In this document: positions 34,924-54,466 of the stretch, one piece after another
Position numbering within the stretch: position 1 is the first letter of the stretch
How the letters are laid out: every line of letters starts with the position of its first letter
Origin: Desulfosoma sp.
GTDB lineage: Bacteria; Desulfobacterota; Syntrophobacteria; Syntrophobacterales; DSM-9756
Assembly (NCBI GenBank): GCA_037481875.1
Contig: JBBFKY010000005.1
Coordinates: 62,001-126,000 of the forward strand
Reading direction: 5' to 3'
DNA length: 64,000 nt
The notes under the pieces: generated by a model
Seen by the model: the letters and a program-made list of their open reading frames with translations, nothing else
What the model was told of the DNA's origin: nothing
Database searches by the model: none
Translations under genes and position numbers: made by a program

Positions 34924-35502
34924 ACCGTTGCACCCCCCTATGACACTTCTCTCGTTTCTTAGGAGCTTGTCCGACTATGCCCTTTTTGGCAGCTTTGGGA
35001 ACGCTAAGTACCTGAAATTGCCTATCCCCAAATGGAGCATTCTGAGTTCTGAGACAGCGCTCGAAAAGCTGTCCAAAAACGGGAAAGACCACGGCATCGA
35101 ATGCCATTGCATAGCAGCGCTGAGGCGCCGCCTCGCCCCTACACAAACTTGAAACCGAGCTATTCCCTGGGAGCGCGCAGGCATCTGATCCGTTCCTTGT
35201 GCAGGCGACAGATCCTCGTTCCCAGGAGAAAATCCGGTCTCAGACACGCCCTCAGATCCCCGGCCCGAAAAGCATGTATCTATACGTTCGCCACCAGGCC
35301 AACGTCAACCCCAAAGCCTCCCGTCGTTTCAAGGACATGCGGGTGACTTTCTCCTTGCAAAACCCTCTGGGCCGTGCTACAGGGTGCGTGAAATCTTTAT
35401 CATGCCAGGGGCTGCCGATGAGGCGGTTCGTTTCAGGGGTTTTCACCGTAGGGATCAGCGACGCGTGACAAGTCTAAGGAAGAAGCAGAAGGAGGCAAAA
35501 CG
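34924..35502. other. Intergenic region, divergent, with repeat unit
   Basis: 579 bases between divergent genes. TGAGGCGCCGCCTCGCCCCT at 35121-35140, followed by ACA, is a member of the palindrome family. No gene, RNA or clear promoter pair was recognised. Confidence 0.5.
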
Positions 35503-47917: not shown

Positions 47918-48267
47918 CGCCTCTCACACCTCAAGAGTCTGGAATTTGTGCATTGAAGCTTCAAAAGCGGCTTTGTCTGATGGGCTTAGCCGCGTGTTCG
48001 AGAACTCACAATAGCAAGGTCTTTCATGCTATTTCAATGAAGGGGCGAGTTGGCGCTCGCCCCTGCAACCCTGAAACTGTGTTTTTTCTTGGGGCGGGGA
48101 CCTTCGGCCCGTCATTTGTGCGGCCGGGACGCCTGCGGTCCCAGGCAAAAATTCAATTTTGGTCAAGCTCCCATGTAAGCAGCCCGGAACGCTCAAAAGC
48201 GAACCGCGGGTTTACGTTCCTAGAAAAACCAGCGTGTTTTCGCAATGGGTGTGCCCTTCGAGGGCCG
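47918..48267. repeat. Intergenic region with palindromic repeats
   Basis: 350 bases. AGGGGCGAG/CTCGCCCCT (48041-48064) is a perfect 9-bp inverted repeat of the scattered family, followed by GGGAC/GTCCC (48126-48142). No gene or terminator with T-tract was found. Confidence 0.6.
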
Positions 48268-50134: not shown

Positions 50135-52066
50135 TCAGGAGAGCTCCTTGGCATAAATGATCTTGTGATCCTCTGGACCGTAAAAATCAGGATGCAAAGC
50201 CACAAAGGCATATCCGGCCCGAACATAAAACCGTCGGGTCGGTTCATAGGTGTCCCGGGATGAAGTTTCCACATACACGCGTTGCCCCCCGGCTCTTCCA
50301 ATCGCCGATTCGGTCTCTTGAAGAAGCTTTCGTCCGATCCCTTGTCCCTGAAACGCCGGATCCACCACAATCCAGTAGAGCTCATATCGACCGGCGGTTC
50401 CCAAAATAGGTCCATAACAGGTGTAACCCACCACACGCCCTGCATATTCAGAAAGGACAAAGAAATAGCCGGACTCCGCGCCTGTTCCGAGGCTTTGACG
50501 GGCCAGGTCCCGAGCTACAGAAAGTTCTTCTTCGTTAAAGAAACCTGTTTGCGCCGTGATCCGATCCAGCGTCTCCAAGTCTGACGGCACAAGGTAATTT
50601 CTGAAGCTTAGATCGGCTTCGTCAACCTCTGTCCGTGACGAAAAAAACACAGGTCTAGAATCGTGTCCGGGAACGATTGTGACCCTAGGAGCCCGGTCGT
50701 CCCACGCGCACAAATGGCGGGCCAGAGGCCCGCGCTTCCGGGAAAGGTATCGCCTTTTCTTGTCTTCGGGCAGACTCCTAGGAAATCGCCGAGCTTTGAA
50801 CGCATCATCGATGAGCCGCTGCACCACGTCGTCCACATTCAGACCCGCTTGATCTGCCGCCGCCATGAATCCAGCATCAGGTGCAAGACAAGGATTCGCG
50901 TTGATTTCCAAAATCCAGGGGCGCCCTTGCCAATCCACTCGAAAATCGATTCTTGCATAGCCTCGAAGCCCGAAAATGTTCCAACATCGTTGAGCCAGTC
51001 CGCACAGGCGATCGAGAAGCGGGGCGTCTTCTTCAGAAAAGGAAAAGGAGCGCATCGTGTTCCTTTCGGCAAAGGAGCCTGCAACCCACTTGGCTTCATA
51101 GTCCACGATGCGATGTTTTTGCGAGCTGAAACCCACAAAACACATTTCGGCCGGCGGAAGCACCTGAACTCCATCAGGGCTTGAGAGCAGCGAGAGATTG
51201 AATTCTCGACCGTCAATGAAATGTTCCACGAAAAATCCGTCCGGGCCGAACCGGTGTCGGGCTCGCGTCATGGCCCGGTCCAAGGTTTTCAGGTCATGAA
51301 GGGACACGACAGCTTCCTGATCGATCCCTACCGAGGCATCTTCCCATAGGGGCTTTACAATGGCAAAGCTTTCGGTTCCAAGGCTTCGCATCCAATCTTG
51401 AAGGCTACCGAGAAGCTTGTCCCAGAGCGCATTTTCCCATGGAAGCTGGGACGTTTCGCCGCCCCAAAGGTCGGGCGGAAAGCCTGCGCTCCCAGAAAAA
51501 CACCCGGTTTCAGTTTTGTAGGGGTGAGGCGCCGCCTCGGCGCTACCGGGAACTGGCATGAGATGCTTGGCCTTGCGAGTTTTCGAAGAGGCCTCCAGAC
51601 TCGTGTTGCTTGAACCCGGCGTTGAAACGAAAGGCACGGCCTTTCCAAGGTCACCCTGATCACAATCATTCCCAAGACCGAGAGCCTTGTTCGGCTCAAA
51701 CCATGCCGGTGTGGGAAGCCCGTACGCCGTCAACCAATATTTGGTGAGCACTTTATGAGACGTCACAAAAACGGCCTCTGTGGAACACCCCGTATAAGGA
51801 AAGCCTTCCACATCCAGCAGCCCGGGCGCCACATGAATCAAGCGCCCGGTCCCTTCAACCGTTTCCACTAGGTTGAAAACCAGGTCCGGGCGGAGATCTC
51901 GAAGCGCCCAACGTCCGGCTTCAAGATGTGAGGAGAAGGGAAGAAAAATCACATCGTGTCCTAAACGTGTGAGCGCTTCTCCCAAGAAACCGGCTTGGAC
52001 CAACACATCCTCTTCATCAGGCAGCGCCTTTGAGGGTACGGCAGAATGTAGAATCACAACCCGCAT
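50135..52066 (-). CDS. ATP-grasp ligase (Ddl-like) fused to GNAT acetyltransferase
   Basis: 643 residues. The ATP-grasp part (about 1-435) resembles D-Ala-D-Ala ligase: PDLVFNLVE, FAIVKPLWEDASVGI, FFVEHFIDGREFN, ARIDFRVDWQGRPWILEINANPC. A GNAT domain fills the end (about 480-643) with acetyl-CoA loop FQGQGIGRKLL. It overlaps the upstream ATP-grasp gene by 13 bases and is third in a kamA cassette. Around residues 145-225 and again near 452-460 the protein contains sequence translated from GC-rich palindromic repeats. The insert separates the N-terminal and ATP-binding parts. Likely joins an amino group to a carboxylate and acetylates a product; substrates unknown. Confidence 0.85.
   Translation of the reverse strand: MRVVILHSAVPSKALPDEEDVLVQAGFLGEALTRLGHDVIFLPFSSHLEAGRWALRDLRPDLVFNLVETVEGTGRLIHVAPGLLDVEGFPYTGCSTEAVFVTSHKVLTKYWLTAYGLPTPAWFEPNKALGLGNDCDQGDLGKAVPFVSTPGSSNTSLEASSKTRKAKHLMPVPGSAEAAPHPYKTETGCFSGSAGFPPDLWGGETSQLPWENALWDKLLGSLQDWMRSLGTESFAIVKPLWEDASVGIDQEAVVSLHDLKTLDRAMTRARHRFGPDGFFVEHFIDGREFNLSLLSSPDGVQVLPPAEMCFVGFSSQKHRIVDYEAKWVAGSFAERNTMRSFSFSEEDAPLLDRLCGLAQRCWNIFGLRGYARIDFRVDWQGRPWILEINANPCLAPDAGFMAAADQAGLNVDDVVQRLIDDAFKARRFPRSLPEDKKRRYLSRKRGPLARHLCAWDDRAPRVTIVPGHDSRPVFFSSRTEVDEADLSFRNYLVPSDLETLDRITAQTGFFNEEELSVARDLARQSLGTGAESGYFFVLSEYAGRVVGYTCYGPILGTAGRYELYWIVVDPAFQGQGIGRKLLQETESAIGRAGGQRVYVETSSRDTYEPTRRFYVRAGYAFVALHPDFYGPEDHKIIYAKELS
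50717..50733. repeat. Palindromic repeat inside the ATP-grasp-GNAT gene
   Basis: GCGGGCC/GGCCCGC with a 3-base loop, followed by GCTTCCGGG, which resembles the GCGCTCCCAG tail of units near 51.49 and 62.79 kb. It lies in frame in the linker between ligase and acetyltransferase domains. Confidence 0.6.
51459..51546. repeat. Tandem palindromic repeats inside the ATP-grasp-GNAT gene
   Basis: CCGCCC/GGGCGG (51459-51478) followed by CTGCGCTCCCAG, then GTAGGGG...GAGGCGCCGCCTC...GCGCTAC (51518-51546). Both match the intergenic palindrome family (compare 35121-35143), yet the reading frame stays open through them. Confidence 0.7.
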
Positions 52067-53115
52067 GAGAGCCGCCCCTCGTGGATTGACCTTGAATCAA
52101 GGGCCTCTCTGTGAAGAGATTTTTCCGGAGCTTTGCCGCCTCTAACCATTCTTTGTATGGCTTCATTCAAAACGGCACCGATAAGATCCCGATACGGAAT
52201 ACCAAGAAGCGTGCACAAAATGGGCAAATCCGAATGCTCAGGATGCAACCCTGCCAGGGGATTTGCTTCGAGAAAATGGGGGCGTCCTCGACCATCAGAA
52301 CGAAGGTCGATACGACCGGCGTCTCGACATCCAAGCACTTTCCAGGACTCCACGGCCACACGGGCCGCCTGCCGTGCTTCTTCGTCATCCGCCAGACGGT
52401 ACAGCACACGTTCCTCGCACCATTCCTTGTTGGCGTAGGAATAGACTTCGGCATCCGCATTCTCTCGAAGAACCACTTCCATGACGCCGAGGGCTCGAGT
52501 CGATTTTCCCGAACCCAAAAGACCCACGGTAAATTCACGACCGGGTAAAAATGTTTCCACCAGCACGGGCTGGTCATACGTTTCCAAGAGAAACACGCAC
52601 ACTCTCTCCAATTGCTCCAAAGACTGAATTTTCGATGCCGTCGTTATGCCTTTACCCGTCCCTTCGCGAACGGGTTTGGCAAAAAGAGGCATAGGAAGAT
52701 CCACGCGCCCGACATCTTCAAGATCGCCGACCACAACGAAAGGCGCCGTAGGAAGCCCGGCATCCCGCACCAGGCGTTTCGCCACCGACTTGTCCAACGT
52801 GACACACAAACTCAACGGATCGGAAAACGTGTAAGGTATTCCATAGGCATCCAAAAGGGCGGGAACTTGAGCTTCTCGGCCTGATCCCAGAAGTCCTTCG
52901 GCGATATTGAACACGAGATCCCAGCGGTCTCCAGAGACCAGGCGCTGCATTAAATCCTTAAGACGTCCGATGCGATCGGTTTCATGACCCAAGGCACGAA
53001 TGACGGTTTCCAAGGCTTCGATGGTATCCGGGCGGTCAAATTCAGCCGTTTCTTCCTCCGAAAACCCTTCCGCAAGATAGACGTCCCGAAGGTCGTACGT
53101 CAGCCCGATCTTCAT
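52054..53115 (-). CDS. ATP-grasp ligase, D-alanine-D-alanine ligase-like
   Basis: 353 residues from the ATG at 53115 (GAGGC eight bases upstream). Ddl-like layout: N-terminal domain with WDLVFNIAEGLLGSGREAQVP; ATP-binding LFAKPVREGTGKGI; VLVETFLPGREFTVGLLG; Mg2+ site GRIDLRSDGRGRPHFLEANPLAG. The standard Ddl EINTIPG loop is EANPLAG. It lies 13 bases after kamA and overlaps the next ATP-grasp gene. Probably not the housekeeping Ddl; the context suggests a ligase acting on beta-lysine or a related amino acid. Confidence 0.85.
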   Translation of the reverse strand: MKIGLTYDLRDVYLAEGFSEEETAEFDRPDTIEALETVIRALGHETDRIGRLKDLMQRLVSGDRWDLVFNIAEGLLGSGREAQVPALLDAYGIPYTFSDPLSLCVTLDKSVAKRLVRDAGLPTAPFVVVGDLEDVGRVDLPMPLFAKPVREGTGKGITTASKIQSLEQLERVCVFLLETYDQPVLVETFLPGREFTVGLLGSGKSTRALGVMEVVLRENADAEVYSYANKEWCEERVLYRLADDEEARQAARVAVESWKVLGCRDAGRIDLRSDGRGRPHFLEANPLAGLHPEHSDLPILCTLLGIPYRDLIGAVLNEAIQRMVRGGKAPEKSLHREALDSRSIHEGRLSCGL

Positions 53116-53128
53116 TGGTTTTGCCTCT

Positions 53129-54466
53129 TCAAAACACTTCATGGACCACCCGGCATGATCCGGAGGGAACCTCGAAAGCCTTGGGGTACCGAAACAGGCG
53201 ATGTTCATAGTTACGAAGGATCAGATCGTTGCCGTCCACTCCCTGCACATAGTCGGGAAGAAGAGGAATCTTGCCACCGCCTCCTGGAGCATCCACCACG
53301 TAGGACGGCACTGCATACCCAGAGGTATGTCCTCGAAGACCGTCCATGATGTGGAGCCCTCGAGCGATGCTGGTTCGAAAGTGGGCCGATCCGCAAATGG
53401 GATCGCATTGGTACAGGTAGTAAGGGCGTACTCGAAGACGCATGAGGCCTTGAAAAAGAGCCTTTAAGGTAGCCACGTCGTCGTTGATGCCTTTCAGAAG
53501 CACCGTCTGGCTGCCTAGGGGAATGCCGACATCCGCCAGCCGTGCGCAAGCTTCCGTCGTTTCCGGTGTCAATTCCTCCGGATGCGTGAAATGCAAGCTC
53601 ATCCACAATGGGTGATATCGACGCAGAAGCCGGACCAGATCCCGCGTGATCCGTTGAGGCAAAACAGCCGGGACTTTGGTCCCTATCCGTATGATTTCCA
53701 CATGCCGAATGGCCCGAAGCCGATCCAGAAGCCAGCCCAAGGCTTCATCGGCCAGGGTGAGGGGATCGCCGCCGGATAGAAGCACATCGCGAACGGTGGG
53801 CGTCGCTTGAATATAGGCCAGAGCCTTTTCCCAAACACGACGACTGGCATGCCCTCCAGTGCCATGACGTCCCACAAGCCGGGATCGCGTGCAATAGCGG
53901 CAATAGGTCGAACAAAAGCCTGTCACCAAAAAAAGCACTCGGTCCGGATAGCGATGGACCAGTCCGGGCACCGGTGCGTTCCGGTCTTCTCCTAAGGGAT
54001 CCACGGATTCTTCAGGACTGCGAAGCCATTCTTCAGGAAGAGGCACCACGGAACGACGCAACGGATGCTCGGCATTCCTTGGGTCCAAAAGGCTTGCATA
54101 ATACGGTGTGATTGCTACGGGAAAACGGGCGGAAGGGTTTTGCAAAGCGCTTTGTTCCGCGGCACTGAGATGGACGATTCGGCTCAGCCCGTTCAATGAA
54201 CGAAATCGATGCTGCACCTGCCAATGCCAGTCATTCCACAAAGCAGGACTCACATTGGGAAAATACTTCTTTTTGAATTCGCAGGCTTGTTCGCTCAGGG
54301 GCATGGAGGCGGATCGGCGGGAGGAGAGTCGAGGGATCCGCCGATAGGAAGGTGAGGCATCGGTTGGGTCTGCGCCCGGAGGTTCGCTTGGAGGCTCCTC
54401 CGCCTCGGACGACTCTTCAAAAACAGCTGAAGACTCCTGCCGCCATTGTCGATCGGTTATTTCCAT
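53129..54466 (-). CDS. kamA: Lysine 2,3-aminomutase (KamA family)
   Basis: Radical-SAM/PLP enzyme interconverting L-lysine and beta-lysine. 445 residues from ATG 54466 (AAGGGTG six bases upstream). Radical-SAM cysteines are C185, C189, C192 (GFCSTYCRYC); the PLP lysine is K399 in DAPGGGGKIP. The two aspartates that bind the lysine side chain, D355 (YQCD) and D392 (VVDAPG), are both kept, favouring lysine over glutamate as substrate. The C-terminal cysteines of the clostridial enzyme are absent, and a low-complexity extension of about 55 residues precedes the core. First gene of a three-gene cassette with two ATP-grasp ligases. Confidence 0.93.
   Translation of the reverse strand: MEITDRQWRQESSAVFEESSEAEEPPSEPPGADPTDASPSYRRIPRLSSRRSASMPLSEQACEFKKKYFPNVSPALWNDWHWQVQHRFRSLNGLSRIVHLSAAEQSALQNPSARFPVAITPYYASLLDPRNAEHPLRRSVVPLPEEWLRSPEESVDPLGEDRNAPVPGLVHRYPDRVLFLVTGFCSTYCRYCTRSRLVGRHGTGGHASRRVWEKALAYIQATPTVRDVLLSGGDPLTLADEALGWLLDRLRAIRHVEIIRIGTKVPAVLPQRITRDLVRLLRRYHPLWMSLHFTHPEELTPETTEACARLADVGIPLGSQTVLLKGINDDVATLKALFQGLMRLRVRPYYLYQCDPICGSAHFRTSIARGLHIMDGLRGHTSGYAVPSYVVDAPGGGGKIPLLPDYVQGVDGNDLILRNYEHRLFRYPKAFEVPSGSCRVVHEVF

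Follow-up and report, generated by a model that had tools for sequence, protein, structure and literature searches.

What does a lysine 2,3-aminomutase make when it is encoded together with two ATP-grasp ligases and an N-acetyltransferase? The question is raised by three adjacent genes of Desulfosoma sp. (contig JBBFKY010000005.1), lying in the 64,000-nucleotide stretch analysed here, the window, and encoding KamA, a ligase (AG1) and a second ligase fused to a GNAT acetyltransferase domain (AG2-GNAT). An earlier note had proposed these genes as a candidate pathway for a beta-lysine conjugate. We find that the cassette is a genuine pathway unit, and the reading that we favour, with a probability of about 0.52, is that lysine is converted to beta-lysine, beta-lysine to one or more amides, and these to an N-acetylated amide, polyamine-like products included. 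Gene content, co-conservation, kept catalytic residues and protein folds form the basis of this reading. The narrower claim that beta-lysine feeds both ligases is quite likely to be correct, and the class of chemistry is well supported.

The AG1 search of 395 genomes of the sampled phylum, probably Desulfobacterota, gave 139 matches with an E value of 1e-40 or lower, of which about 75 scored more than 300 bits, while the search with AG2-GNAT in 59 relatives gave 20 matches. About 80 loci, designated by L numbers below, were retrieved and re-annotated with one script, orthology being assigned by BLAST and a simple ORF caller. Among the 56 loci in which AG1 scored 300 bits or more and the flanks on both sides were long enough, AG2 is present in 54, a GNAT in 50 and a linked KamA in 46; the arginine decarboxylase PdaD is linked in 8, and no locus has both KamA and PdaD. 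On the scale of whole genomes, AG1 occurs in 70 of 198, and an AblA-type KamA scoring 440 bits or more is found in 66 of these 70, as against 14 of the 128 genomes without AG1 (Fisher p ~3e-33, uncorrected for shared ancestry, with the membership of some genomes inferred and the lists transcribed by hand). The adjacency of KamA with two ATP-grasp genes is thus conserved, and the case that the earlier note had named as fatal to its proposal, a lack of co-conservation elsewhere, does not apply.

Full-length orthologues for all parts, and the recurrence of the block across many families, place it far beyond chance. The flanks vary around this constant block, and no flanking family occurs in more than 8 loci, save a sigma-54 (NtrC-type) response regulator found in 16, including L041, L043, L049, L054, L101, L102, L115 and L131, which may be regulatory or simply belong to a common family. 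Fusions occur within the block, of KamA with AG1 in L049 and of AG2 with GNAT in the window and several other loci; in related loci the GNAT is usually a stand-alone gene. The distribution appears, from the homologues and their tree, to be broad and largely vertical within the phylum. Outside it, one scan covering close relatives gave a single locus, in Ruegeria sediminis, whose position nested inside the phylum tree suggests transfer. A plasmid search matched nothing but remote ATP-grasps. A Bradyrhizobium plasmid cluster (L138, 2198-6963), which encodes a KamA-family protein, a gamma-glutamyltransferase (GGT), an RloB-like 7TM protein and an ATP-grasp, is a different and apparently unrelated association of KamA with an ATP-grasp. 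A search of the open literature found no paper on the block.

The structure closest to the window KamA is that of the Clostridium subterminale enzyme (2A5H, E 3.8e-127). The two aspartates that had been picked out as lysine-selecting, D355 and D392, indeed align with D293 and D330 of 2A5H, which bind the epsilon-amine of lysine, and they are invariant in all 75 of the 75 KamA homologues aligned. The cysteines of the CxxxCxxC radical SAM cluster (C185, C189 and C192) and the PLP lysine K399, the equivalent of K337 in 2A5H, are likewise present and invariant in 75 sequences. With 467.9 bits, the protein lies below the 525-bit equivalog cut-off of the NCBIfam AblA model; together with the retained lysine-binding residues, this score indicates a KamA-family enzyme outside the curated AblA set. 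The window's genome also encodes a second, shorter KamA paralogue in an unrelated context (L064, 5341-6393; 48% identity, 355 bits to AblA). Lysine fermentation was considered and rejected: the KamAs of L221-L223 form a separate small clade, and that of L222 adjoins the beta subunit of lysine 5,6-aminomutase, a neighbour that the window block does not have.

Beta-lysine is also attached to elongation factor P (EF-P) by EpmA and EpmB, and protein modification is known from ATP-grasp ligases of other clades, so that the two ligases might transfer beta-lysine to a protein, a lipid or the cell wall. However, the window KamA is of the AblA type and reaches 250 bits against the EpmB model TIGR03821, for which 369 are required. 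The genes noticed to recur beside the block include no efp, epmA or target gene, and ligases of this fold are, as far as known, small-molecule enzymes. We therefore regard a macromolecular target as highly improbable.

The fold in question is that of D-alanine–D-alanine ligase (Ddl). The AlphaFold2 (AF2) model of AG1 has a pLDDT of 92.6 and a Z score of 33 to DdlB (8evy), and VIA-align lists Ddl-type ligases alone for AG1, which leaves room for other families. The AG2-GNAT model has a pLDDT of 83.0, with a disordered insert, and its AG2 portion matches Ddl in Foldseek (E 1.2e-19). The earlier description of two Ddl-like ligases is therefore apt for the fold, with the correction that about 90 residues of AG2 (~130-222) belong to an inserted repeat and not to the ligase. 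Both families retain E270 and N272, the ATP/Mg ligands, whereas they have not kept the first-substrate residues of Ddl: in the sequence alignment, whose register is less sure at the N-terminus, Glu15 of the EREVSL motif is mostly Ala in AG1 and Asp in AG2, and H63 is replaced by Glu in nearly all members of both. The substrate pockets thus differ from that of Ddl, while the chemistry, formation of an acyl-phosphate and then of an amide, should be the same. Two loci, L122 (4269-6299) and L165 (4218-6248), contain single ORFs with two tandem AG1-like ATP-grasp domains, with no KamA nearby.

Given the fold and the top database matches, AG1 and AG2 might be taken for cell-wall ligases of the D-Ala-D-Ala type, ordinary or specialised, standing beside KamA by accident. 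Besides the loss of E15 and H63, the window's genome encodes a canonical Ddl, EREVSL motif included, at a separate locus, all NCBIfam Ddl models score far below their cut-offs for the window ligases, and both genes are tightly co-conserved with KamA. The residues, the separate ddl and the KamA linkage speak against an ordinary Ddl identity, the second case in which the earlier note would have had to be abandoned, and we find even a specialised role of this type hardly credible.

The nearest known association of a lysine 2,3-aminomutase with a GNAT is AblA-AblB, which produces the osmolyte N-epsilon-acetyl-beta-lysine without any ligase. The earlier note had looked to this pair for the role of the GNAT, but homology gives no support: the window GNAT has no match to the AblB model TIGR03827 at E up to 0.01, whereas the same model detects the AblB proteins of L218 and L219, two true ablAB loci from this phylum, with 326 and 303 bits. 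The block KamA, in addition to its score below the AblA cut-off, groups apart from the AblA proteins of these ablAB loci, which are separate from the block and different from it. The closest solved structure to the window GNAT is 2r7h (TM 0.98 over the target), which is DDE_3044 of Desulfovibrio and was deposited merely as a putative D-alanine N-acetyltransferase.

A second osmolyte pathway offers another parallel. In the synthesis of N-acetylglutaminylglutamine amide (NAGGN), an ATP-grasp-GNAT fusion makes an acetylated dipeptide osmolyte, with another ligase type and domain order and with an asparagine-synthase-like partner in place of KamA. Among the genes around the block in the window, none was seen to resemble asparagine synthase, and the NCBIfam model for NAGGN synthetase is not among the best 25 of the 32 matches for the AG2-GNAT fusion. 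The amidoligase neighbourhood survey of Iyer and colleagues from 2009 reportedly predicted pathways that combine an ATP-grasp, a GNAT and a modified-amino-acid enzyme to make small peptides or amides.

On these models, the product could be an acetylated beta-lysyl di- or tripeptide serving as a compatible solute, an elaborated N-epsilon-acetyl-beta-lysine or an analogue of NAGGN. The pairing of KamA with a GNAT, reminiscent of ablAB, and the ligase-GNAT fusion of the window are consistent with this idea, and in other organisms both beta-lysine and acetylated peptides are known to serve as osmolytes (PMC12776343, PMC1224877). However, the GNAT fails the AblB model, the phylum has true ablAB loci apart from the block, and the recurring company of the block consists not of osmoregulatory genes but of polyamine genes and a domain resembling acetylpolyamine amidohydrolase (APAH). 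An osmolyte is accordingly unlikely. Of the original proposal, the conjugate pathway is borne out by strong co-conservation, while the osmolyte idea finds no specific support and gives way to a polyamine context.

The same GNAT bears a weak similarity to the acetyltransferases that act on streptothricin and aminoglycosides, and antibiotics of the streptothricin type contain beta-lysine as a building block. A beta-lysine-containing secondary metabolite, either an antibiotic-like or a signalling peptide, is nevertheless very unlikely, since the recurring neighbours of the block include no exporter, carrier protein, NRPS or resistance gene, and the broad, apparently mostly vertical spread of the block in the phylum is unlike that of typical antibiotic clusters.

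The polyamine context has two sources. The first is a GNAT-HDAC gene, in which an HDAC-family domain sits behind a GNAT domain. It is an addition to 13 of 67 loci, where it either follows AG2 or lies between KamA and AG1; in L038, L099 and L115 it is also fused to the operon GNAT. The closest solved relatives of this HDAC domain are acetylpolyamine amidohydrolases (PDB 6phr and 3q9b), and for L054, 6phr is the best match among all solved chains (E 1e-70). The operon version differs from these enzymes in its GNAT fusion and in being encoded with KamA and the ligases. The second source is the set of operons without KamA, which carry PdaD (over its cut-off) and often agmatinase, the latter exceeding its cut-off in L126 and narrowly missing it in L128, which is truncated. 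A gene of the deoxyhypusine-synthase family stands beside AG1, AG2 and the GNAT in several families. In the PdaD-type locus L139 (2554-8800), and similarly in L142, L145, L153 and L155, an agmatinase or deoxyhypusine-synthase-family gene lies upstream, and a phospholipid-methyltransferase-like gene and a second GNAT lie downstream; a third ATP-grasp-like protein was recognised by eye in L139. The polyamine genes and the APAH-like domain hint at polyamine chemistry independently of each other, though neither proves it, and this context points to polyamine chemistry rather than to an osmolyte.

The mutually exclusive linkage of KamA and PdaD might mean that the ligases acylate a 1,4-diamine, which could be either beta-lysine, a carboxymethyl-substituted putrescine, or putrescine itself, with PdaD and agmatinase replacing KamA. 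In line with this, the linked supplier switches at least twice within the AG1b clade on the tree, and putrescine is usable solely as an amine acceptor. Yet all 11 PdaD-linked genomes checked within the 198-genome sample keep an unlinked KamA, and the 7 that were placed in the tree group with the operon KamAs, apart from the AblA proteins of ablAB loci. This weakens a simple substitution of PdaD for KamA and makes such an exchange of diamines unlikely. Beta-lysine would instead be needed in both operon types, with agmatine or putrescine derived from arginine as an extra input, so that beta-lysine plus putrescine is favoured over replacement.

In the pathway that we favour, the operon would serve the synthesis of a single small amide that contains beta-lysine. 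KamA would convert L-lysine to beta-lysine (3,6-diaminohexanoate). AG1 and AG2 would each form an acyl-phosphate and then an amide, joining beta-lysine to one or two amino acids or amines; in the PdaD-linked loci our best guess for the partner is agmatine, putrescine or a polyamine. The GNAT would N-acetylate a free amine, either on beta-lysine itself or on the conjugate. Where the operon has the GNAT-HDAC gene, the APAH-like domain could strip the acetyl group, which would make the acetylation reversible there. The product would most likely be a cytosolic cation resembling a polyamine, or the same compound neutralised by acetylation. More tentatively, the phylum may possess its own polyamine-type metabolites, amides that the two Ddl-fold ligases form from beta-lysine and agmatine, putrescine or another amine, and whose charge is switched by the acetyltransferase paired with an acetylpolyamine-type deacetylase.

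Several points weigh against this pathway. Substrate and product, together with the individual reactions, the order of the steps, the partner and the physiological role, are inferred from the genes. The APAH-like gene is near AG1 in just 13 of 67 loci, and the window has none. PdaD, agmatinase and the deoxyhypusine-synthase-like gene could be ordinary polyamine genes co-transcribed by chance, and the unlinked KamA of PdaD-linked genomes could serve another purpose. Family searches of the window's genome found neither PdaD nor an OKR-type decarboxylase, and only LysA and one other fold-III decarboxylase, so an amine partner supplied by these routes is not evident there. Spermidine-synthase-family genes are present in this genome.

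The layout of the block is given in the table below; the extents, spacing, overlap and domain content first read for the three ORFs all agree with the sequence and Pfam. A promoter and terminator scan gave no signals above chance expectation. An anti-phage defence role was discarded, as PADLOC has no match for the block.

Table. Features of the KamA-AG1-AG2-GNAT block in the window
Feature	Position	Strand	Remarks
KamA	53129..54466	-	445 aa, ATG at 54466; Radical_SAM + LAM_C (PF04055 + PF12544)
kamA-AG1 spacer	53116..53128	-	13 nt, read from sequence
AG1, Ddl-fold ATP-grasp amide ligase	52054..53115	-	353 aa; Dala_Dala_lig_C (PF07478)
Overlap of AG1 stop region and AG2 start	52054..52066	-	13 nt, read from sequence
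AG2-GNAT fusion ORF	50135..52066	-	643 aa; Dala_Dala_lig_C + Acetyltransf_1
AG2 ligase domain	50783..52066	-	fusion residues 1 to ~428; PF07478, AF2 model, Foldseek to Ddl
In-frame insert in AG2	51401..51679	-	~residues 130-222; copy of dispersed genomic repeat
GNAT N-acetyltransferase domain	50135..50623	-	~residues 482-643; PF00583; own gene in most relatives

The insert in AG2 is a copy of a dispersed repeat of about 280 bp, which has 43 DNA matches in the window's genome (68-100% identity over parts of the query). Lying in frame, it adds about 90 residues that are predicted to be disordered, with AF2 pLDDT values below 50 at residues 133-208, and the AG2 of a sister species lacks it. Further copies occur in the window at 35076-35249 and 47997-48118, on the strand opposite to the AG2 copy. 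Palindromic elements within Rickettsia genes are comparable.

A four-gene pathway in about one third of the sampled genomes of the phylum, on which the open literature searched had no paper, implies a common metabolite. The database label "D-alanine--D-alanine ligase" is probably wrong for the ligases of the block and may mislead the annotation of cell-wall and resistance functions. Since the KamA residues are invariant, a GNAT structure has been solved (2r7h) and genetically tractable relatives exist, the product is directly findable. Should it prove to be polyamine-like, beta-lysine would join the building blocks of bacterial polyamine chemistry.

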